From contig CAJVGD010000002.1 in assembly GCA_910890315.1 (NCBI GenBank), forward strand, positions 2,728,001-2,792,000: DNA of 64,000 nt, in the 5' to 3' direction. This document shows, one piece after another, positions 33,286 through 58,964 of this stretch. This DNA comes from Serendipita indica DSM 11827 (taxonomy: Eukaryota > Basidiomycota > Agaricomycetes > Sebacinales > Serendipitaceae). The position numbers and the translations under genes were made by a program. How positions within the stretch are numbered: the first letter of the stretch is position 1; every line of letters begins with the position of its first letter. The notes under the pieces were generated by a model. It was given only the letters and a program-made list of their open reading frames with translations, was not told the DNA's origin and searched no databases.

Positions 33286-36067
33286 ATGGACGACGACATT
33301 TCCGCCTCGTTTGGCTTTGGATCGTTTGGAAAGCAGAAGAAACAGAAAAAGGACGAGACTCCGCTGTTCGATGACATCCGACGGCCAGTGGTACGGGCGC
33401 TGCTATTCCGTTTATTCCGCTCACATCCTTTCCGGGTTATCTTACAGGATTCAGGTCCCAGTCCCGCTCTTGAGCGCTCAGTCCCGTCACCTGGCCCCTC
33501 CAAACCTCTGCCAACAAATTCCTCGGATTCAGTACGCCCCCCGCGCGTAGAAGACGACGACGACGCGGATGAATATGGTAATGACGATGAAGACGACGCA
33601 GGAAACGCGTCGCTCTTCCCCATCTCCCACGAGGCCACGCTCAAAGAGCACAAAAAGGTCGTCACCGCGCTCGCGTTGGACTCGTCTGGCGCACGCTTTG
33701 CAACGGGCTCGCACGATTACGATGTAAAACTATGGGATTTTGGTGGTATGGGTGGTGGCGTTGGAAGGCCGTTCAAGTCATTTGAGCCGGCAGAAAACTA
33801 TTATGTGAGCTATCCCTTCCGCTTCTCCGCAAGTTTCCCTATTTCTCCAGACTCGCACCATATGTTGAGCTATGCCACTCTCTCTATCTTTTACATTTCA
33901 GGCTATCGCCGCTTCTATCTGCCAAGCGCTCAATGTCCATACTCATCCGGCCTCTTGAATTCGCCTCCGGGGGTGGAGGCCACGCGCATACATGTCTTTG
34001 TATGCCAGCATATCCCATCCGTCCCACCTTGGTTGTTTCAACCATCAATCCTGCTCCATTACGCCCATTACGCCGCTCCATCCGATTTCCATCCTCCATC
34101 CGTCAACGTCCACAAACTGACGTGCTGGGACTTGTTCTCAGGTCAACGACCTCAAGTACTCAGTAGCTGGCGACCAGTTACTGGTGATTTCAGGAACAAC
34201 TCAGGCTAAAATATACGACCGTGATGGTGAAGAACTGTAAGTGGTTTCCCCTGACTATCCTATACATGCTCTCTCGCGTCGAAACACCTGACTTCGGTGC
34301 CTTTAGTCAGACGTACATCAAAGGGGATCCATACATCCGGGACATGAAGAACACTGCGTGAGTTTCATTCTCAAAATACCCTCACAATGCTGATCCTTTG
34401 TATTTTCCATGGCGCCCGTCTCGATCTCTGAATGACCATTGGTCCAAACTCAAAACCCTTCCGACCTCGCAGGGGCCACGTTGGAGAGTTATCTGGCGGT
34501 GCATGGCATCCAAAGGACCCACAGACGTTTATCACGAGTTCGGCTGACAGTACGATCCGGTAGGGTTTTGCATATCTTGTCCCCCCCTTATCCATTCCCG
34601 CCCTACTGAACCAAGCTCGGGCCTCCCTTGCCATCACGAGACCGTATGCCAGCGCTGACAATCGCCAATCAGGATATGGGATGTCGAGAACAAAAGAAAG
34701 CAGAAGACGGTCATTGTGGTCAAATCCAAAGAACGTGGGGCAAGAACGAAAATATCCAGTTGCTCTTATTCGCACGATGGTTCGTTGATCGCCGCGGGTA
34801 CGTCTTTGGTATTTCGTTCTATTCGCAAGTACTTACGCATGTCCCATAGCTTGCCATGATGGTGCACTCCACTTATGGTCGACGAGCTCCAATTTTGTTC
34901 GCCCCAACATGTCGATGGAAAATGCACACGCCAAGGGGACGGACACGAGTTCCCTTGTACTTTCTATGGATGGGAGAACCCTGCTCACTCGAGGAGGCGA
35001 CGATACAGTCAAGAGTAGGTTCCCCTTAGCCCTTCCCCTGAAGTCGACGATTGTTGACCTTATCCACAAGCCTGGGATATTCGGGCATTCAAGAAACCAC
35101 TCTACACCGTCGGCGGCCTGACCAATCTCTACCCAGGTATGAATGCCATTTGGAGCCCTGACGAGAAGCACGTCGTTGTTGGATCCGGGACACCCCCAGT
35201 GAATGGACGCGCAGCAGGCGGAAGATTATTATTCCTCAAACGGGAGGGATTGACAGTTGCCGAGCAAATCGATATGAGCAGCTGCGTAGTCCGAATAGTT
35301 TGGCATTCCAAGATCAACCAGGTGCGTTCTCACGATGGTCTAACCGGCCAAACCCCGCCTTTTTTTCACAAGCACTAACCAGCGCTTTTTATTCATGCCA
35401 CACGCACATGCATATGTCCCGATCCCGACGCGGCTACATTCACTCCTGTCACTCTCTAATATGACAACCGGCAGATTTTTACGACTCACGCCGATGGGTC
35501 AGTTCACATCCTATATTCACCGCATTCGAGCACGAATGGCGCAAAGCTCCTGAACCGACAACGGGATAAACGTGGACCGACGATTGAAGATGCGTCTGCC
35601 GCGCTGCAAATGGCACCAATTGTCGCACCCGACGAAAACTTCCGCGAAGATGATTTGAGTGTGTTTGGCGTGGCGGGCACGAAACGCAAGAGGGAGAAGA
35701 ATGCTCCGCCGGATCCACGAAAGGCGTTTAGGCCAGAGTTACCCGTTACGGGTCCCGGTCGTGGTGGACGGGTTGGAGCTAGTGCGACGCAGCATGTCGT
35801 ACAGAATTTGGTGCGGGATACGATGAGGGATGAAGACGTGTGTGATCTTTCTTATTCGCCTCGAGGGTTTTGGTTTACTGACTTTCTTCCATAGCCACGA
35901 GAGGCATTGTTGCGCATTGGAAAGACGGTTGACAATGATCCGCAGTGGACCAAAGGTAGGCATTCGTATCGTTTATTTGATGGCTTGCTGACGGGTGGCC
36001 AGCGTGGCGAGAAAATCAGCCCAAGCCAGTGTTCCGCGAGGTCGAAGAGGACGACGAAAAGAGCTAG
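33286..36067 (+). CDS. WDR70: WD40-repeat protein WDR70
   Basis: Multi-exon gene ending at TAG 36065-36067. Exon 1 encodes a short acidic/basic start (DDDISASFGFGSFG). After a Ser/Pro and acidic stretch the WD repeats begin: HKKVVTALALDSSGARFATG, HDYDVKLWDFGGM, FKSFEPAENYY, then across introns VNDLKYSVAGDQLLVIS, KGDPYIRDM, GHVGELSGGAWHP, TSSADSTIRIWDVE, CHDGALHLWS, SMDGRTLLTRGGDDTVK, WDIRAFKKPLY and IWSPDEKHVVVGSG. The C-terminus has FREDDLSVFGVAGTKRKRE and ends DPQWTKAWRENQPKPVF. This is the conserved WDR70 family, a nuclear protein tied to the DNA damage response in yeast and animals. One intron (about 33805-34139) is some 335 bases, far above the local norm, and is open in the upstream frame. 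Confidence 0.92.
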
Positions 36068-39381: not shown

Positions 39382-41720
39382 AAACTTCCACTCAACCCAG
39401 TAGTGAATTTCGACAAGCGGGATGAGTGGAGCGAGTATGTATACTCTAGAGTCAACGAGGCGATTCCGATCAAGCATATGGTGCGAAATCTCTCCCCTTG
39501 CATCACAGAGACAAGGAGTGGCTCAAGGAAGCCAACTCTATCGAGTCTTGGACCGAACACTCCGACGTTTTCACCTACTTGAACGAGATTAGTGCCTCAA
39601 TACGGAAGAAGAAGGTATGTGTTTACCTACCCCGTCAAGTTTGACCATTAACGACGCTTCTAGACCATGAGTACAAGATATCGTTTCTAAAGACCACGAA
39701 CAAGCCAGTTGCAGGTCACCCAACCGAGACTGGTTGTCAACCAGACATATTAGCCTAGAGGGATTACCCAGGCAGAGTCCTCACACCTGAACAAGTCAAT
39801 GGCTGCACTTGGGAGGGTCGGGGGAGACATGGTCAGCGGGTGACAACCAAGAAGAAAAGAAGCAAAAGCGGGGGCGTATACGGCATTCAACTTGCTGGCT
39901 CGACCAGACTTGGTCTCCGTACCCGGCCTGTGGATCAAAAGGTAACAGGCTCATTATCTTCTTCACCAACGCGTCCAGGGTCTACCATTCGCCAATCGTC
40001 AAACTCAATGAGAACAATGGTCGCCTATTGATCTACGCATTCGTTTGGCATCTCTATCACCCAATCACAGATCCAACAATTACCATCGACCTCAAATCCC
40101 TTATTTCGACTTTTACTGTCACCTCTGACGAAGTCTACGAGAATATCTCCATCCTCTATGTTGGCGATGCAATCGGTCGGAGGACTACAATCCTCGAGCA
40201 GCCAACAAATTCTTCATTGGTTATCAAGGAACAATACCTCAAACCTGACCAACGGTTTAAAGAAGGAGACCTGTTGAACAAGATCCATAAGGGCGGGTAC
40301 TTCCCTGGCGTCGTCCGTGTCAAACGCGTTGAACAAAAAGTGGCTCATCAAGGCAAGGAGGTTGCCACATCTGATCGGGTCAAAACGCGCCTAGCTCTTC
40401 TGGACAAAGGAACGCAGTTTCAGGAGGTCAAAACCTTCCGCCAGATGTTGATGATCATGTACGACGTCTTAGAAAGTCAGTGATCTATTAGCACGCTTCT
40501 TCGTCTGCTAAAACTTGTTTAGTGGTACGTATGCTTCATCGGAAGCGACAGATAGTGCATCGGGATCTCAGTTCTGGGAATATCCTCTTCCGAGAGATGA
40601 CCAAACCGGAATTACGATGCATCTCACCTGATCTGTGGGACTCGGACATATGCTCCACCCATTGTCTACTTGAGTCGCAGGAAGAGTGAGTAGGTGATGA
40701 TATGATGTACAACGAATAACCCGGATATGTATAGACCTACAATCGAGGATTGCCTTTCCACCTCGCTTCTGCTGAGGACTTTGACCGTGGACAAGATAAA
40801 GACGTCAACACCCAAAGCAGTATGCCTCGAACGGTAGTGGTACTCTGCTCCTCCATAACTCCTCCGCTGACAAGCTTCCAGGGTACTTCGATATTCATGG
40901 CGTACATGGTGCGAAATAATGTGTACCAGACCGGCAATAAAACAATACCCGCGATACCTCATGTTCATTCCGACTTGATCTCTCGCTACCAGTCACTACT
41001 TCCGGATCGACTGACGAGATTTCCGGAGAACGAGGAGGAATTGAGACCAATGCCGAAAGGGGAAACACGCTCGGATAAAGATTTCAGCACCTTCTTCGGC
41101 ACGACGCCGAGTCGGTGTTCTGGTGCATGGTGTGGTGGTCGATCCAAGTCAAACCCAATGGTTCAGGCCGAAGCGAGTTGCTACAGTCGTATTGGGCTAA
41201 CCTCACGGACGATCAAAAGGATCATCGCTACCATTGCTACGTCAACACCACCGAGCCATTTCCTCTACACAAAGACTACGTCCTCGTCAACGAGCTGCTC
41301 GATCAAATGAGGGAATACCTCAAGGTCGACCTCAAGTACTCTGAAGATGAAAGGAAACGTAACGATCCCGAATACCTGTGTGAAGTGTTCCAGAGACTCA
41401 TCCTCAATTTCCTCGTCGAATATCAAGGGTCACCCTTTCTGACACTCGAAAGGGATGCAGAGTTTCGAAAGGTTGGAGAACCGTGTGGTGGTGGAGCAAT
41501 GTCAACGACAACCGGGACCAAAGAGTCATATTTATCTCGCTCGAGCGTCGGTGCGCAACACCCTTCGGGTTCAGTCTATTCAAGTGGATCTAGCAATGAT
41601 GCCAAGCGACGAGCTGACACGGATGACTCTGAACTCGAGGTGAGTAGTAACTGCGAGGAACACAGCTACTCATACCTTGAACAGGGAGGTCATCGGCCCA
41701 AGAGACCACGTCATGCGTAA
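39370..41720 (+). pseudogene. FunK1-type fungal protein kinase, arm 1 copy, disrupted
   Basis: The kinase body is easy to follow: LIYAFVWHLYHP, VYENISILYVGDAIGRR, LVIKEQYL, HKGGYFPGV, then the catalytic loop HRDLSSGNILF, and further on SDLISRYQSLL and VFWCMVWWSIQ, with a C-terminal basic tail (KRPRHA). These mark the FunK1 family, common in Agaricomycetes. The copy is disrupted: the N-terminus has been replaced by the nested inversion, a stop follows DILA near 39755, and one base is missing near 40778, where arm 2 reads LLLTDFDCGQD. It retains the C-terminal exon that arm 2 lacks. Function, if any transcript is made, is doubtful. Confidence 0.7.
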
Positions 41721-50300: not shown

Positions 50301-50979
50301 TTCACCCATCCAAAAGGCCAGGCCCATTTCTGAAGCTTGTAGGTCCGGAAGTACTCTTTTTGCTCTGCCTGGGTAGGTGCGAGGTATTGTAAGAGGAGAT
50401 AAAAGAAGGCGGCGAGAATAATGCCCTCGTAGGCGTCACGAATAAGGCTGAGAGGAATAGCGTGATTCTGTTCATCGACACGGGTAAGCGCTCCGCAATG
50501 AAGGCCCGACTTTGAGTGCTCACCCAGAAGAAATAGCAACCGCAGCTGATAATCGCGTAGATTGGAACCATGAGGAGTAGTCTTACAATCTGACGTTGTT
50601 GTCGTCGATTGGTGTACCAGGAAAGGTGCTACAGGCGGCAATGTTAGAAACGCCGCAGGTGGCTGCCAAGTGCTGTAACTAGCCTTGATAATCAACCAAA
50701 TCGAGACTGCTGTTGCGACTATGGCAAAAAAGCTAGCAACAATCCATCCGACCTGAGCAGTCAGGTTAGGAGGCGGCAATTAGTAGATGATTTCAAACGA
50801 CGTACATGATGGGCTGGCCAGCGCAATGAATATTAGCCATAAAGTAAAATAATCAACGATAAATACTTACCCTGAAAGGTCAGGACGCCATTCTGGAAGA
50901 GTGGCGGCGCTTCATGGACCTCTGCGTGCGTCGGACATGCTCCAGGCGGAGCGGTGGTCGTATGCGTAGCTTCCGCCAT
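47347..50979 (-). CDS. TMEM184/OST-alpha-type membrane protein with a long disordered tail
   Basis: The N-terminus (ATG at 50979) has no signal peptide. The exons encode about seven membrane helices: VGWIVASFFAIVATAVSIWL, RLLLMVPIYAIISCGCYFFW, DAYEGIILAAFFYLLLQYL, LFSIKAIIFLMFWQTAFLSAL, and LRLFAFLHVSCFSY. Motifs are those of the organic solute transporter alpha/TMEM184 family, also called DUF300, found in vacuolar or Golgi membranes of fungi and plants. After the last helix comes IPYRKADRS and a single huge exon (47347 to about 49620) of roughly 750 residues that is charged, Ser/Pro-rich and without visible domains; yeast-type members have much shorter tails. The tail may be a cytosolic scaffold. 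It lies head to head with VAM7. Confidence 0.85.
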
Positions 50980-51047
50980 GGAATCTAAACGCCAAAGAGG
51001 CGTCTCTCGTCGCGTCTGACGACCTCTGGGACGCGCTAACGACTAGG

Positions 51048-52198
51048 GTGGGTGACCGGAGGGAGCAAGCGGTGAAAGCCACTTTGGACCGCCCACAAAC
51101 TGTGAATTACCAAAGGATGGCGACAGCAATCCAAAGCGTAGCAATCACTGGAACAAAGGACCGTACAAGTCCTAAACCACACACAGTCTATGAAATCACC
51201 GTCACCACGCCGATGCGCTCATGGCAAATGTGGCGACGGTACTCGGAATTTGACGACTTGCACGACGAGCTCGTCAAAACATGCTCAGCAGCACCTCCAG
51301 CGCCTCTCCCGGGCAAGCACTTCTGGTCCTTGAAGAGCAGCTTTCACAACGAGGCGCTGATCCAGGAGCGCAAGGCCGGGCTGGAGACATACCTGCGTGC
51401 CATTATCGCGTCCAAGGATTCTCAGTGGAGAGACAACGCTGCATTTAGACAGTTCTTGGGTGTCCCAACGTCCAAGTACCAGGAAGCCCAGGCAGCGAAA
51501 TCGGTTGGCCCCGTGTTCTCCACGGCGTCATGGATCGAGGAGCATTCAGAACTCCAGACGCTTGCGAGAAACGTTCGAGCATCTCTTAACAAGCGCGATT
51601 CACTCTGGGACTCCGGTGACACGCGCGCGTCGAGCTCGTCCAACATTCAGGCGAAACGACAGCTCGCCGACCTTGCCGACCGCGTAGGCAATCTAGCAAA
51701 GGGACTACAATCCCTGAGCGAGGCAGGACTCAGCCCCGGAGAACTCCAACGCCGTACGGATATGGTGACAAAGCTGCAAGACGACTGCGAGCAGCTGACG
51801 CGCATCGTCGCTATTGCGCGTAACCCCAACCGACGAGCAAACGCACCTACCTCAGCGGATGCGATGCCCTCTGGTAGTGCACGTTCAAACCTGCTCAGCG
51901 GGCAACTCGTCCCGTCACGCGCGTGTTCGGTGCGCCTCAGCATGCCCCCGAAGAAACGGCAGAAACGCGTCCTTTGGACAACAAGGGATTGCTACAGCTT
52001 CAGAAGCAAAAGATGGACGACCAAGACTCGCAGCTCGACAATCTCTCCGCCATCCTACAGCGGCAGATGCACATTGGAATGGCGATTTCAACAGAGGTAG
52101 AGGAACAGAACAAGATTTTGGACGAGATGAACGAAGACGTTGACCGGGTCACGGACAAGCTGAAGCGGGGTAATAAACTCATGACCAAGATTTCCTAG
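51048..52198 (+). CDS. VAM7: Vacuolar SNARE VAM7 (PX domain plus Qc-SNARE), one apparent frameshift
   Basis: The N-terminal PX domain starts after Met 51117 (IQSVAITGTKDRTS, VYEITVTTPMRSW, WRRYSEFDDLHDELV, PAPLPGKHFW, RKAGLETYLRAII, FRQFLGVP). A linker and coiled segment follow (QLADLADRVGNLAKGL, LQDDCEQLTRIVAIA). The SNARE helix ends the protein (LLQLQKQKMDDQDSQLDNL, then TEVEEQNKILDEMNEDVDRV). PX binds PI3P and the SNARE drives vacuole fusion, the known role of Vam7. Between SARS and RPVTRVFGAP the frame must advance one base; an A run of three at 51887-51889 would need to be four. Without it the SNARE would be lost, so a sequence error is likely. No intron seems required. Confidence 0.9.
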
Positions 52199-52270: not shown

Positions 52271-54352
52271 TCAAAGACAAAATACTTCGGTGTGTAATGC
52301 GACTCCTCCAACTCGGGCTGCTCGGAGACCTAGCTTTGCGACGGTGTTTCTTGCCTCTGATACGAGTGAATGAGGTCCACTTGCAGCAATTCCTATCCCC
52401 CCAGTACCGTGCGAGGCTCCAGAGACAAACTCATCTAGCATGTCGGCAATCGAAGGCTTCTCCATCGTGGCCTCGCTATTGGGTATATCTGGAACTTGCT
52501 CAGGATCACACAAGCAAGTGACGAAAAACTTGATGTGAAGCTCCAGTGATGGATCTTTCGCAGCTGCAGTGGCGACGTCGTCTAACTGTGATGCAAACCA
52601 CTTAATCGCTCCTATGCAGATTAAAGGGTCAGTGCATTACCAATTCACTGAGAAGGACTCACCAAACGACTTGATGCACCAAGCCAACTCGATCTTATTC
52701 GTCCGTTCTCCATAGGGTCGACCCAGTCTGACAATCCTCCCAACGAGATCATCCAATACTCCAAGAGTGAACGTAATCCCAGCTCCACCTGCGACAAGGA
52801 GGACGTGCTCATATGTCCCCAAGTCGAAACTAATCCCACCGTACGGGCCATCAAGCATGACCGTAATCTGCTGCTCCGGGAGCTTATCATCACAACATTG
52901 TTCTTCCGTGGAATGATCATCGATCGCTTGCGCAAAGGCGTTGAGAGAGCGCGTCCAATCACCAACGACGCGCGCGGCGAGGAAAATCTGTCCGTGCGAG
53001 GATGAGATGGTAGAAATGTTGGCGGGTGCGTTGCAAATGGAGAGAGCATGGGATTCAAAGACGCGGCCTCCGTAGAGCGCACGCACTCGGACGTGTTGAC
53101 CTGCAACCCACCCAAAGTCGCATCCATCAACGTTAATCTGGAAGTAGAGAGCTGTTAGCAAGTGAGCTTGATATAGAGGGACAGAAGACGGACAAAGGTT
53201 ATCTGGCTATCCGGGGCGGACAAGGTGGCGGGCTTGAAGCGGAAGCGGAAGAGGCGCATCAGCATATCCAAGGCGTAAAAGGCAATGGCTGGGAATATCC
53301 ACGGTTGAGCATATGGCGTGTGATAGCAGACAAGCACAAAAAATGCAATAAAGCCAACAATACTGATTCAAGTCAGCATAATACTCGGTTCCTGTGGTAG
53401 AATCAACGAACTGTGTCATGAAAAAGAACTGGTATGCTAGCTTCCGGACGGGTTTGACTGAGGTGAGGACGATCAAACAGAGGATAGCATATGCTGCCAA
53501 GCCTCTCATTTCCTTATCTTGATTAAACTTGACACCAATCCTGAGGTGACTTTGTATCCATAGAGCCCCATGAATGGTCGCCGAGAGGAATATAGCGCGG
53601 CCAGACCAGCGGTGTAAGAAATTGAGTTTTTCGTAGCCACGGCCCATCAAGGTTGCTAAGATATTGTTCTTCGTGGCGAGAAGAAAGACAAGAGGCAGTT
53701 GTGCGACTGCAAGGAACCCTGGAGCGGGCTCAGCGAATATGCCTCAGAGGATAGAGCACGGCTAACCTGCCCTGTTGGCATTTGTTCGTAACTGTGCATC
53801 CTTGAGAATGCAAGCCAACAGCGTACTCAGGTAACCGAGAAGAAGAATGACTAGCAAGACCCCCAAGACTGGTCAGTAGTTGGCCAATAACAGCGTGATA
53901 AATTTGGCTCACTCTGCCCGACGTCCAGTCTGAGAAAGGGAGGTTCATACAAGCTCCAACCCGCCAGCGCGCTCATCCATCCGCGCAATCGCGTTGCCGG
54001 TCTACGGCTTGATTGACCAGAGGAGTGCTTTTCGCTCGAGGTTGCAGTGTCGATACTTTCATAAGACGTAGGTCCATAGTCCTCTCCAACACCTCGGAGC
54101 GCAGCCCAAAGCCGACCAGTCTTGATTGATCTGGCTATTCGAGGGCTGCTGATGAGGACGCAGAACACAGCAACAGAGACCCAAGTGTACGTAAATGCCT
54201 TTGCAAATGGCGGGTCCTGCTTGAACGAGCTAGTAGCGAAAATGGCGCAGAATTCATTAGAGTGATAGCGGAGCAGCCAAGATAAACAAAACCCACTCGT
54301 ACAACTGGAGCGACTCTGGGACGATGGGGATGCCGTTCTCGTCGTAGGACAT
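52271..54352 (-). CDS. Ferric/cupric reductase transmembrane component (FRE family)
   Basis: A multi-exon gene from ATG at 54352 (SYDENGIPIVPESLQLYEW). Membrane helices follow (AFTYTWVSVAVFCVLISSP, LVILLLGYLSTLLACIL, FLAVAQLPLVFLLATKNNIL). The hallmark heme segment is LNFLHRWSGRAIFLSATIHG, with two His, then GLAAYAILCLIVLTSVKPVR. The cytosolic half has an FAD-binding stretch (VAGQHVRVRAL, FESHALSICNAP with the HPF-like His), VMLDGPYGG and the NADPH-binding GGAGITFTLGVLDDL, ending GVALHTEVFCL. FRE enzymes reduce Fe3+ and Cu2+ at the cell surface. It is the first of three minus-strand genes with related copper roles. Several exon junctions are not fully resolved, but motif order is complete. 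Confidence 0.9.
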
Positions 54353-54479
54353 GTAGTGGAAGAGTTCAAGATGCGAGTTGCGGATTATCTCGACGTTTAT
54401 ATGCTTGCTTCGGCTGGGCACCCTTCCCTTCCCAGCCTCACATAGAAGTTAGCGGTGGAGGACATGTGTATTCAAGTAA

Positions 54480-55397
54480 TTAGAGCATGGACGACACTAG
54501 GCCTATCAGAGCGAGAATAGAGGCCCCAGTTGCTGCCGAGATACTTCGCTCGGTACCACCGGTCGAGCTCGTCGTGGAGGATGATGCAGTGGGAGTTCCA
54601 CTAGAGCCACCCGTTCCTGTACCAGTAGGTACATTATACTCGTTGGAGCACGTCACATTAGATGGAATCGTCGCATTGCTCAATAGAACAATATCCGCAC
54701 ACTAAAACTTGGGTTAGAAATCTCGTCCCCTCCTTGTAGATTATCGACTCACCTGGAACAGGTTTCCATCGCCGCCTGCATACTGGACAGCTAGAGTTGC
54801 TGGAGTCCCCTCTGTGACATTCTGGTAGCCAATCGACTTGACATTTACTCCAATGCAAATGTCTTCACCGTCGACTTGGAAAAAGTCACGCACAGGGGCT
54901 TGGGTTTGGCCTGTCGTGGAGTTTGTAAAGTCGGAGATGTTGGTCGGGTTTGTTTTGAACGAGATCATTACGCGAACTGTACCAATCTGTCGTCAGGCCC
55001 AACTTAGAGCTCAGACCACAAAGTGGGACGCACCATTGGCTTGCTCGTGCTCACTCGCGAGTTTGATGTATGCTGCACCTAGGGGAAACGGCACCCGTTC
55101 GCCGACAGTGTCAAACCCGCCTGTGGAAGTCTATTAGATCGAATCCGAGCCATTTGTGCTATAGGGCACAGGCGCACCGCATGGGGCTGTCGGTTCCTTA
55201 GTCTATTATTAGAGTCAGTACAGATCTCTAGGGCGTCCAGCTCGACCTACCTCGTCAAACCCTCGACTGGCGGGGTACGTGAGCTGGAAATGGGCAGAAG
55301 CATAGCCTAGAGAACCATCAGAGGTTTGTATCGGTGAACGCGGACACAATCTACCCAGGAGCGCTGCAAATGCGAAAAGGTGGGCAACAGTGAGCAT
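54480..55397 (-). CDS. BIM1-like (X325, LPMO-fold) copper factor, secreted and probably GPI-anchored
   Basis: Spliced: a signal peptide (LTVAHLFAFAALLGYASA) is followed at once by HFQLTYPASRGFDE, so the mature protein starts with His, the His-brace residue of LPMO-like proteins. Then TAPCGGFDTVGERVPFPLG, a second His in LASEHEQAN, NPTNISDFTN, the Asp-containing VDGEDICIGVNV, and YAGGDGNLFQ. A Ser/Thr/Gly-rich stretch leads to a hydrophobic C-terminus (ISAATGASILALIGLVSSML), as in GPI-anchored proteins. This matches the BIM1/X325 group, which binds copper but lacks polysaccharide oxidation. In Cryptococcus neoformans Bim1 works with Ctr1 in copper uptake. Two introns were placed so that the conserved PCGGFD and NVRVMISF segments join; these are inferred. 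Confidence 0.9.
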
Positions 55398-55523
55398 CGT
55401 GGGGGAGTCAAGATTTCGACAATTGGTAGTCTTTTATATCCTGTCGGGTGGCAACCTCCAGCCGTAGAAACGATAATTATAGACGGAGAGTTTCAACACA
55501 GAGATATTGATTGATTACAAGAC

Positions 55524-56253
55524 TAGTGGTCTACATGGGCGGAAGCATAGGCAAGTCTCCCAAAGAGAACCTCTCCAGTACCGAGACCGAGGAGTATAGA
55601 GAGAATGAAAGAGGCGTTGAAAGTCCTTCAAAGATGCAATTAGATCAATTTAATATTGTTGTGGTGGGTACTCACATCACGGTCAGCATCAGCGCATAGG
55701 TTATGGCGGTCTGGCAGACTACGAACGCTCCCCGAGCGAGGTCGTGAGAGAGAATGAATGGAGGGATTGCTTCGCGAGAGAAGCGTGCTGTAGGCTGCGT
55801 CTGGCGCTTCGAGCCACTGGCCGGTCTGATGTTGATCTCGCCCAGCTTTTCCTCCTCTGAACGCGACTTGTCTGAAAGTTCGACGAATCGACGTGTAATA
55901 GCTGATCGTGCACTATTCACCGCAAAGAGACATTTGTGCTATCAGTCCTGTGCCCTTGAAACGACGAATAAGACTCACCGCTGTGCCCACCAGAGTTCCA
56001 TAAGGCGGCGCATCGCAGCGAGCCATCTGTCGAGAATTGCAAGCATAAAGAGGCCGATGCATGCACCAAAGATGGCGCCTGGCTTTCTGGGGATCCAGTT
56101 CTTGAAGAGGAGGGTATCTCCTGGCGTGAAATGAAGCCAAGGAACCATCATGACCATACTGGAATCTGAGCTTCCAGACGTGGGTCCATGGTCGTGCTGT
56201 GCAGCGGCGTGCTGAGCGGTGAGCGCAAGGACGAGGAGTGGGAGAGTGAGCAT
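55524..56253 (-). CDS. CTR: CTR-family high-affinity copper transporter
   Basis: ATG at 56253; three exons ending TAG at 55524-55526. A signal-like leader (LTLPLLVLALTAQHAAA) is followed by a short His/Met region (QHDHG, MVMMVPWLHFTPGDTLLF). Membrane segment 1 is KPGAIFGACIGLFMLAILDRW. A cytosolic loop follows, rich in charges (KSRSEEEKLGE). Segment 2 is FVVCQTAITYALMLTVM with the conserved MxxxM copper-selectivity motif. Segment 3, after the last intron, is FNASFILSILLGLGTGEVLFG with GxxxG packing. These are the defining CTR features. It sits immediately upstream, in transcription order, of the BIM1-like gene (126 bases between coding ends), and the FRE gene follows. Confidence 0.95.
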
Positions 56254-56784
56254 GGGTGGGGTGCAAGGTTTATGGGAGGCAATACACGGCCGCTCGCGTA
56301 TTTATGCACTAGAGCCAAGGCCATTGGAGACCGAAGTAGCACATACACTGACAATTGTAATCTCCGATAAGCCCAGGCTGCAGAGATTCCTGGTCGTTGC
56401 TGGACAACTTGGACTTGGCATCATCAACCGCGTATAGACTCCTAAGCCAGCCAGCAACACGAAAACTACCGATATTGTCTAACATGCCTTGCAGATACTA
56501 CGCTCAGTTCACCCGCCTTCGTATTCCCGAGCAGTCCTGGCCCTCTCACGCACATGGTTGAAATAACGTCAAGATACCAAGTATATGGCGGATGCGGCCA
56601 GGTTACCAGTTCAGGCGCTTTTTGATAGAGGTTCCCAACCCAGTCTTAGGTGTACTCATCTGTAAATATATTCAAATAGAACAACGAATAAGGAGTTACA
56701 CCTGATGCGGCCTTTTGTACTGTCGAACCCCCTTTTCGAAACATAGCCTCAGCAAGAAAACAGTTTAGTGAGCAGACTAACACA
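56254..56784. other. CTR promoter region and spacer before arm 2
   Basis: The part next to 56253 is the presumed CTR promoter, with a TATTTATG element near 56298-56305. I found no exact copy of a yeast Mac1-type copper element. The segment 56450-56780 holds no supported gene and leads into the truncated end of the arm 2 kinase copy. Confidence 0.45.
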
Positions 56785-58964
56785 TGGTTCTCCGACCTTT
56801 CGGAACTCTGGATCCCGCTCGAGTGTCAGAAAGAGTGAGCCTTGATATTCGACGAGGCAATTGAGGATGAGCCGCTGGAACACTTCACACAGGTATTCGG
56901 GATTATTCCGTTTCCTTTCGTCTTCAGAGTACTTGAGGTCGACCTTGAGGTATTCCCTCATTTGATCGAGCAGCTCGTTGACGGGCCCGTAGTCTTGGTG
57001 GAGAGGAAATGGCTCGGTGGTGTTGACGTAGCAATGGTAGCGATGATCCTTTTGATCGTCCGTGAGGTTAGTCCAATACGACTGTAGCAACTCGCTCCGG
57101 CCTGAACCTTTGGGTTTGACTTGGATCGACCACCACACCATGCACCAGAACACCGACTCGGCATCGTGCCGAAGAAGGTGCTCAAAATCTTTATCCGAGC
57201 GTTTTTCCCCTTTCGGATTGGCTTCAATTCCTCCTCGTTCTCCGGAAATCTCGTCAGTCGATCCGGAAGTAGTGACTGATAGCGAGAGATCAAGTCGGAA
57301 TGAACTTGAGGTATCGCAGGTATTGTTTTATTGCCGGTCTGGTACACATTATTTCGCACCATGTACGCCATGAATATCGAAGTACCCTGGAAGCTTGTCA
57401 GCGGAGGAGTTATGGAGGAGCAGAGTACCACTACCGTTCGAGGCATACTGCTTTGGGTCTTGACTTCTTTATCTTGTCCACAGTCAAAGTCTGTCAGCAG
57501 AAGCGAGGTGGAAAGGCGATCCTCGATCGTAGGTCTACACATATCCGGGTTATTCGTTGTACACCACATCATCACCTACTCACTCTTCCTGCGACTCAAG
57601 TAGACAATGGATGAAGCACATGTCCGAGTCCCGCAGATCAGGTGGGATGCATCGTGATTCCGGTTTGGTCATCTCTCGGAAGAGGATATTCCCAGAACTG
57701 AGATCCCGATGCACTATCTGTCGCTTCCGATGAAGCATACGTATCACTAAACAAGTTTTAGCAGACGAAGAAGCGTGCTAATAGACCACTGACCTTCTAA
57801 GACGTCGTACATGATCATCAACATCTGGCGGAAGGTTTTGACCTCCTGAAACTGCGTTCCTTTGTCAAGAAGAACTAGGCGCGTTTGACTAGATCAGATG
57901 TGGCAACCTCCTTGCCTTGATAAGTCACTTTTTGTTCAACGTGTTTGACGCGGACGCCAGGGAAGTACCCGCCCTTATGGATCTTGTTCAACAGATCTCC
58001 TTCTTTAAACCGTCGGTCAGGTTCCAGGTATTGTTCCTTTATAACCAATGAAGGATTTGTTGACTGCTCGAGGATTGTAGTCCTACGACCGATTGCATCG
58101 CCAACATAGAGGATGGAGAGATTCTCGTAGACTTCGTCAGAGGTGACAGTAAAAGTCGGAATAAGGGATTTGAGGTCGATAGTAATTGTTGGATCTGTAT
58201 TTGGGTGATAGAGATGCCAAACGAATGCGTAGATCAATAGGCGACCATTTCTCTCATTGAGTTTGACGATTGGCGAATGGTAGACCCTGGACGCGTTGGT
58301 GAAGAAGATAATGAGTTTGTCGCCTTTGATCCACAGGCCGGGTACGGAGACCAAGTCTGGTCGAGCTAGCAGGTTGAATGCCGTATACGCTCCTCCTTTT
58401 GCTTCCGTTTCTTCTTGGTTGTTACCCGCTGACCGTGATTCCCCGGTCCCTCCCAAGTGCAACCAGGTGACTTGGTCGTCTTCAGGAGCTTTATCTGGAT
58501 ATTGTCTGTAGGCCGATATGTCTGGTCGACAACCAGTCACAGTTGGGTGCAGTTCAAGTGTCTGGTTCTCTGTTTCCAGAAATGCTATTCCGTATTCGTG
58601 CTCTAGAAGGATCGTCAATGTATAAACTCGATGAGGTAGCTCGGAACATACGTTCAGCTTCTTGGATTGAAGCACTAATCTTGCTCAAATAGGTGACAAT
58701 TTTGGAGTTTGTGGTCCAAGGCTTGATAAGCTTCGCTTTTTTGAGCCACTCGCTGTCGCTATAATGCAAGGGACATAGATTGCGAATCATATCCTCAATC
58801 TGAATCTGCCGTTTGACTAGGGGATATACGTGCTTGCTCCACTCATCCCGCTTGTCGAAATTTATCACTGGTTTGAGTGGAAACTTGATGGGTGACGAAT
58901 AAATCGGGGTGTTGGTTGCAACCTTGGGGGTGACTGGCCGAGGTTCTGGTGAATCCTGCTCCAT
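56785..58964 (-). pseudogene. FunK1-type fungal protein kinase, arm 2 copy, truncated and frameshifted
   Basis: The copy starts MEQDSPEPRPVTPK at 58964, which I take as the ancestral N-terminus. It runs through INFDKRDEWSKHVYPLV, an intron, HEYGIAFLETENQTLELHP, GCRPDISAYRQYPDKAPEDD and the kinase body (AFVWHLYHP, VYENLSILYVGDAIGRR, HKGGYFPGV). A single A is missing from a run near 57891 relative to arm 1, which brings a stop after DLVKRA. Beyond it the catalytic loop, PTIEDRLSTSLLLTDFDCGQD, and the C-lobe remain recognisable. The basic C-terminal tail of arm 1 is absent because the repeat ends. It complements arm 1 in an odd way: its 5' half is sound where arm 1's is not. Confidence 0.7.

Follow-up and report, generated by a model that had tools for sequence, protein, structure and literature searches.

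Three complete, intron-rich genes, encoding a CTR copper transporter, a BIM1/X325 copper protein and a FRE-type metalloreductase, lie side by side on the minus strand in the basidiomycete Serendipita indica DSM 11827, where they fill positions 52271-56253 (a span of 3983 bases) of the 64,000 nucleotides of contig CAJVGD010000002.1 that we analysed and refer to here as the window. The adjacency of the three genes is a real arrangement, it is probably a meaningful one, and we think it quite likely that the trio makes up one physical and functional module that would catch, reduce and import copper under copper starvation. Copper acquisition was what the original prediction, made from the sequence alone, had proposed for this locus, and that reading is borne out by the identities of the genes, by their key residues, by their adjacency and by a comparable trio in Aspergillus fumigatus.

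How firm are the genes themselves? We read the minus strand by eye and joined exons at GT...AG borders, and in doing so obtained three spliced models, each open from ATG to stop, with two introns in CTR, five in BIM1 and six in FRE; the 13 introns range from 48 to 67 bases, and every one of them runs from GT to AG. The genes follow one another head to tail in the order CTR, BIM1, FRE, and the models fit the locus exactly, with 56253 as the first base of the CTR start codon and 52271 as the last of the FRE stop codon, just as had been expected of three adjacent minus-strand genes. Pfam domains and key residues also uphold the identities first proposed for the three products, including the two transporter motifs of CTR and the secreted, histidine-brace character of BIM1; the reductase motifs held in part, as described below.

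The CTR protein matches the Pfam family Ctr (PF04145) at an E value of 2.4e-34 and 119.5 bits (cut-off 25.3), and its MxxxM and GxxxG motifs, which CTR transporters have in the later membrane helices, are MLTVM at residue 167 and GLGTG at residue 184. A search of the Protein Data Bank (PDB) at E up to 1 gave one match, the CTR1 chimera structure 6m97 (E 3.1e-7). At the N-terminus there is a hydrophobic stretch, and the outer N-terminus that follows the likely signal peptide has no methionines other than MVMM at 33-36, which it carries together with the sequence QHDH; CTR proteins of high affinity typically have many methionines there. Within residues 19-36 the mature protein likely starts with QHDH or HDH, then MVMM, with few outer methionines beside. 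Animal CTR1 has an N-terminal Cu(II) site, and it is possible that the QHDH or HDH start of this protein is a site of the same sort.

The evidence for the second protein, BIM1, comes from its family and from a related protein of solved structure. It matches BIM1-like_dom (PF20238) at E 4.7e-30 and 105.3 bits (cut-off 27). A single distinct PDB sequence matches it at E of 0.001 or below, namely the 155-residue LaX325 (6ibh; E 1.1e-19), whose residues 1-148 pair with 20-166 here. A likely signal peptide reaches to A19 and ends A-S-A (a cleavage site that we placed by eye), so that His20 would be H1 of the mature protein, His66 would be H47 and the Asp140 of a GGDG sequence would be D121; as counted on the match, these three fall on LaX325 positions 1, 49 and 122. 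We take H1, H49 and D122 to be the copper ligands of LaX325, and the protein here thus keeps His, His and Asp in the positions of a histidine brace. It also carries five N-glycosylation sequons and, at the C-terminus, a Ser/Thr-rich stalk followed by a hydrophobic stretch (199-217), as in proteins anchored by glycosylphosphatidylinositol (GPI), and we consider it probably GPI-anchored; the solved chain of LaX325 (6ibh, 6ibi and 6ibj) has the same domain but neither stalk nor tail. Proteins of the BIM1/X325 family are characterized by binding copper without cleaving polysaccharides. Could it instead be an active lytic polysaccharide monooxygenase? We judge this unlikely because BIM1-like_dom is its only Pfam match and LaX325 its only PDB match. 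A search for relatives farther afield gave 73 pattern matches in bacterial and archaeal genomes and 9 in viral contigs, none of which was confirmed.

The third gene, FRE, is a metalloreductase by its Ferric_reduct domain (PF01794; E 6.6e-27, 94.4 bits, cut-off 28) and its NAD_binding_6 domain (PF08030; E 4.4e-10, 40.3 bits, cut-off 22.2). One pair of haem histidines together with flavin adenine dinucleotide (FAD) and NADPH motifs had been claimed for it: the NADPH side stood, the histidines proved to form two pairs rather than one (188/202 and 255/269, both H-x13-H), and the FAD_binding_8 match, at 20.4 bits, stayed slightly under its 22-bit cut-off. His255 is formed by splicing at an exon junction, and it depends on the model because we picked the intron ends there with the expected motif in mind, so as to keep the frame and to give that motif. 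In the PDB, nine distinct sequences match the protein (forms of NOX2, DUOX1, two forms of a “putative ferric reductase” and NOX5), the best of them being NOX2 and DUOX1, and one might therefore wonder about an NADPH oxidase. Equal spacing of the two haem histidine pairs is the pattern of FRE proteins rather than of NOX proteins, and in the alignment with NOX2 the second pair requires a one-residue gap; given the H-x13-H spacing and the Ferric_reduct domain, we regard an NADPH oxidase as the less likely identity.

Might three such genes have met by accident? With the copy numbers of Pseudogymnoascus destructans as inputs (2 CTR and 3 BIM1-like genes, PMC12113139; 10 reductases, PMC13208438; 9575 genes in all, PMC5810475; here and throughout, what we say of published work refers to the accessible portions of the reports), about 4e-6 such triples would be expected in a genome of randomly ordered genes, and larger assumed families raise the figure to 1e-5 and 1.6e-5, values to be read as orders of magnitude only because the trio was singled out once it had been noticed. 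Chance adjacency is improbable, and the trio is more than that.

The trio is also not alone. In 2008, three genes adjacent to each other on chromosome 6 of A. fumigatus were described as a GPI-anchored protein (Afu6g02800, listed as such in PMC3601126 as well), a copper transporter (Afu6g02810) and a metalloreductase (Afu6g02820); they were deleted as a unit, and their log2 differences between hyphae with normal neutrophils and hyphae with neutrophils from chronic granulomatous disease were 11, 8 and 3 (PMC2481287). In that report the GPI protein is not, in the portion accessible, termed BIM1-like, and we infer that it is from two other lines of evidence. P. destructans VC83_07867 (BLP3) is annotated as AFUA_6G02800-like (PMC5810475) and is called BIM1-like (PMC12113139), and the A. 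fumigatus homologues given for the P. destructans reductase VC83_03096, for CTR1a and for BLP2 are numbered consecutively, as XP_747795, XP_747796 and XP_747797 (PMC13208438). By annotation and by this reasoning, then, the ascomycete A. fumigatus would have the same three kinds of gene next to one another, and so a second genome with such an adjacent set is already in the literature. The original prediction had listed the absence of any other genome with this adjacency among its grounds for refutation, and on this count it is not refuted. What differs is the phylum and the gene order (by number, GPI protein, CTR, FRE in A. fumigatus versus CTR, BIM1, FRE here, with all three genes head to tail).

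Partial sets are found more widely. Tandems of CTR and FRE were found in 110 of 127 species screened, among them AnctrA-AnfreC of Aspergillus nidulans, in which a CTR gene stands beside a metalloreductase gene as in the cluster here; the two A. nidulans genes are served by a single promoter region; in the cluster here, BIM1 sits between CTR and FRE and all three run head to tail, and a search of the accessible text for BIM1 or GPI terms found no such member mentioned with the tandem (PMC7705104). In Fusarium oxysporum, ctr3/fre9 and ctr1b/fre12 are clustered pairs with Mac1 binding sites, activated by Mac1 in low copper; they are divergent, unlike the genes here, and the third gene beside ctr3/fre9, FOXG_07771, encodes a SAM domain-containing protein, not BIM1 (PMC11563359). 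P. destructans offers the other half of the set: VC83_03095 (BLP2) and VC83_03096 (FRE7-like), which would be adjacent by their consecutive locus tags, both go up in copper starvation (PMC12113139, PMC13208438). In Cryptococcus neoformans, Cbi1/Bim1 is a GPI-anchored protein with a histidine brace and a CTR partner, as we propose for BIM1 here; it interacts with Ctr1, its induction when copper is low runs through Cuf1, and the accessible portion of that report names no reductase partner (PMC9258870). Judged by their tags, its gene (CBI1, CNAG_02775) and the CTR homologues (CNAG_00979, 01872 and 07701) are at separate loci (PMC11509074, PMC9258870), and linkage is therefore not required for the two proteins to cooperate. 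The original prediction had put forward the clustering itself as the point to highlight; the adjacency is real, but it is not new in kind because the A. fumigatus trio and the partial sets are in print. Among the literature matches listed, from which subscription journals are mostly missing, we found no trio of BIM1, CTR and FRE in a basidiomycete, and this is weak evidence.

What, then, might the three proteins do together? BIM1, which a GPI anchor probably holds at the cell surface, would catch Cu(II) in its histidine brace; FRE would carry electrons across the membrane, from cytosolic NADPH by way of FAD and two haems, and at the outer face it could reduce Cu(II), free or bound to BIM1, to Cu(I); and CTR would import the Cu(I) through its methionine pore. 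The trio could answer to a copper regulator of the Cuf1/Ace1 family (here we are guessing outright), and the tight linkage would keep the three genes together in inheritance and in expression. For induction by copper starvation and for a hand-off from BIM1 to CTR we lean on the relatives described above, which the genes here may be expected to resemble in both respects; that FRE acts on copper while BIM1 holds it is a conjecture of our own.

Several observations weigh against this picture, and we collect them here, beginning with the upstream regions. A shared Cuf1/Ace1-type motif had been suggested as something to look for in front of the three genes, and none could be established. We compared the words (of 7, 8, 10 and 12 letters) that the regions share with those shared by random 127-base segments, drawn 1000 times from the rest of the window, with CTR represented by 130 upstream bases; with controls that include coding DNA, the pair of BIM1 and FRE spacers was matched or exceeded in 46-100% of draws and the trio in 65-78%, which is to say that both are at background. 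Nine motif patterns were tried. One of them, HTHNNGCTGD, which we take to be an Ace1-type consensus, matches both spacers (chance about 0.085 each) and was not found in the 496 bases upstream of CTR; the GCTG sites lie at -70 of BIM1 and, in reverse orientation, at -65 of FRE. A 10-mer that we spotted by eye, CTWCGGCTGG, has just two copies in the 64 kb, one per spacer and in opposite orientations, and it is not significant in the unbiased word comparison. The Ace1-type sites amount to a hint only because so many patterns were tried. Upstream of CTR there are single matches to a consensus of Schizosaccharomyces pombe Cuf1 (-207; 0.5 expected), to GGCTGG (-199; 0.32 expected) and to the CuRE motif of Cryptococcus (-462; 0.05 expected; motif from PMC7961099). 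Neither spacer contains the CuRE, Mac1 or MacA motif (the last two from PMC11563359 and PMC6514546, respectively), all of which come from other fungi and may not be the motif of the regulator in this host. We still find a common regulator of the three genes plausible.

The relatives supply further objections. In P. destructans the transporters CTR1a (VC83_00191) and CTR1b (VC83_04814) are elsewhere by locus tag; BLP2 rises 11.9-fold without copper, yet it is abundant in all conditions tested (PMC12113139); and VC83_07867 (BLP3), on which part of our case for Afu6g02800 depends, is given another A. fumigatus homologue, XP_077660942 (PMC13208438). The A. fumigatus triple deletant is sensitive to menadione, and its sensitivity to hydrogen peroxide and to neutrophils is not raised (PMC2481287); oxidants, neutrophils and iron limitation are the assays in the accessible portion of that report, and a copper-starvation phenotype may be unreported. 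At high copper, Afu6g02820 was raised more in the wild type than in an aceA mutant and Afu6g02810 fell 4.85-fold with copper (PMC8425704), and in a strain overexpressing hasA, Afu6g02820 rose along with genes of iron and zinc starvation (PMC4208449). From these responses it follows that strict copper co-regulation may not hold.

One could go further and say that the three genes are neighbors with separate lives, BIM1/X325 working in the cell wall or in development, FRE in iron uptake and only CTR in copper, with no joint function at all. X325 proteins do have such a side: the IcFBR1 relative of Isaria cicadae has a phenotype in development, and roles in cell wall or growth are reported for X325 proteins of Laccaria and Podospora (PMC9695133), while Cbi1 affects the cell wall of Cryptococcus (PMC9258870). 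To these, which also count against our own proposal, the advocate of separate functions can add the rise of Afu6g02820 in the hasA strain and a shared upstream motif that stays at background. Growth of the A. fumigatus triple deletant, on the other hand, was not reduced on iron-limited media (PMC2481287), a result that can be held against either view; and the idea of separate functions must also explain why A. fumigatus has a trio of the same kinds of gene side by side and induces them together, why CTR-FRE linkage is so widespread (PMC7705104), why a BIM1-like gene and a FRE gene with consecutive tags both go up in copper starvation in P. destructans, and how so improbable an adjacency arose by chance. 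We consider it distinctly improbable and prefer the copper module. As an observation apart, the transcriptome of the IcFBR1 mutant shows a CTR3 copper-transporter homologue with a log2 fold change of -1.17 (PMC9695133), which may be one more tie between CTR and the X325 proteins.

If the three genes do act as a module, how are they expressed? TATAAA stands at -41 of the BIM1 ATG and at -49 of the FRE ATG (the chance is about 0.006 for each given 40-base interval), and upstream of CTR there is only ATAAATA at -52, which is not a canonical TATA box. The two TATAAA sites make it likely that BIM1 and FRE each have a promoter of their own. They thereby speak against a single promoter upstream of CTR that would put all three genes onto one transcript, polycistronic or by read-through, an arrangement for which one can cite the head-to-tail order, spacers of just 125 and 127 bases and a report entitled “Widespread Polycistronic Transcripts in Fungi,” which describes transcripts of this kind from several mushroom-forming species (PMC4503453). 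We think such a transcript unlikely; it would bear on the mode of expression only, and a shared transcript and separate promoters can coexist.

A different question is where the cluster came from. Instead of going back to a common ancestor with Aspergillus, it may have come together independently in this lineage or passed from one fungus to another, and this we hold to be possible, although we lean slightly the other way. The gene order differs from that of A. fumigatus, the CTR and FRE genes of A. nidulans share a promoter region as those here do not (PMC7705104), and in P. destructans and C. neoformans alike the locus tags place BIM1 and CTR apart, all of which would suit a separate origin; then again, a linked set is easily reshuffled by local inversions, and the 13 introns would speak against a transfer from an intron-poor genome if it had been recent. 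Either history would affect the past of the cluster and leave its present function as we have proposed it.

We allow ourselves one more speculation, which we regard as doubtful: the trio may have been assembled or kept in both of the great fungal phyla, in differing orders, because BIM1 and the reductase couple, copper being reduced on the protein and Cu(I) passed to CTR without release. If this were true, linkage would mark a three-part machine that catches, reduces and imports copper, and the reductase with which BIM1 works could be recognized from the FRE gene next door. What exactly Cbi1/Bim1 contributes when Ctr1 takes up copper has been called unclear (PMC9258870). The cluster here points to a candidate reductase for BIM1, allows the hand-off to be tested on three genes that are linked and offers a possible role for the “GPI-anchored protein” reported from A. 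fumigatus in 2008 (PMC2481287). Since both CTR-FRE linkage and the A. fumigatus trio have already been published, this goes only modestly beyond existing knowledge.

Table 1. The copper locus, its spacers and its immediate neighbors, in positions of the window
Feature	Positions	Strand	Details
CTR copper transporter gene	55523-56253	-	3 exons: 56253-55979, 55912-55676, 55625-55523; 204 amino acids
CTR-BIM1 spacer (CTR stop to BIM1 start)	55398-55522	-	125 bases
BIM1/X325 (LPMO-like) copper protein gene	54480-55397	-	6 exons; 218 amino acids
BIM1 exons	55397-55355, 55306-55251, 55202-55178, 55120-55034, 54976-54753, 54701-54480	-	
BIM1-FRE spacer (BIM1 stop to FRE start)	54353-54479	-	127 bases
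FRE-type metalloreductase gene	52271-54352	-	7 exons; 582 amino acids
FRE exons	54352-54297, 54229-53913, 53850-53767, 53718-53412, 53362-53194, 53137-52663, 52611-52271	-	
Region upstream of CTR	56254-56749	-	496 bases
Fungal-type kinase pieces, directly upstream of CTR	56749-57777	-	HRDLSSGNILF; weak Pfam matches below cut-off
PX-domain gene, convergent with FRE	50970-52198	+	likely last exon with weak SNARE-like match below cut-off

Does the copper theme continue beyond the trio? The window has 62 open stretches of at least 150 amino acids; besides the three genes themselves we scanned 29 of these and some shorter ones, and no further copper gene appeared, a negative that is weak because most exons are shorter than that in an intron-rich genome. 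A second copy of CTR, BIM1 or FRE was sought in the 64 kb with tblastn at E up to 1, and none was found; the one extra match to FRE (33802-34050; 23% identity, E 0.054) is at chance level. Both immediate neighbors look unrelated to copper. The density of introns and the fungal-type kinase pieces are what one would expect of a basidiomycete. The PX-domain gene, with its SNARE-like exon, we take to be of the Vam7 type, and if 52198 is its stop, then it ends 72 bases from the stop of FRE. Another weak kinase piece lies at 39791-40480 on the plus strand, and farther away are an exon of an Ost-alpha-type transporter and the gene for the proteasome subunit RPN1.

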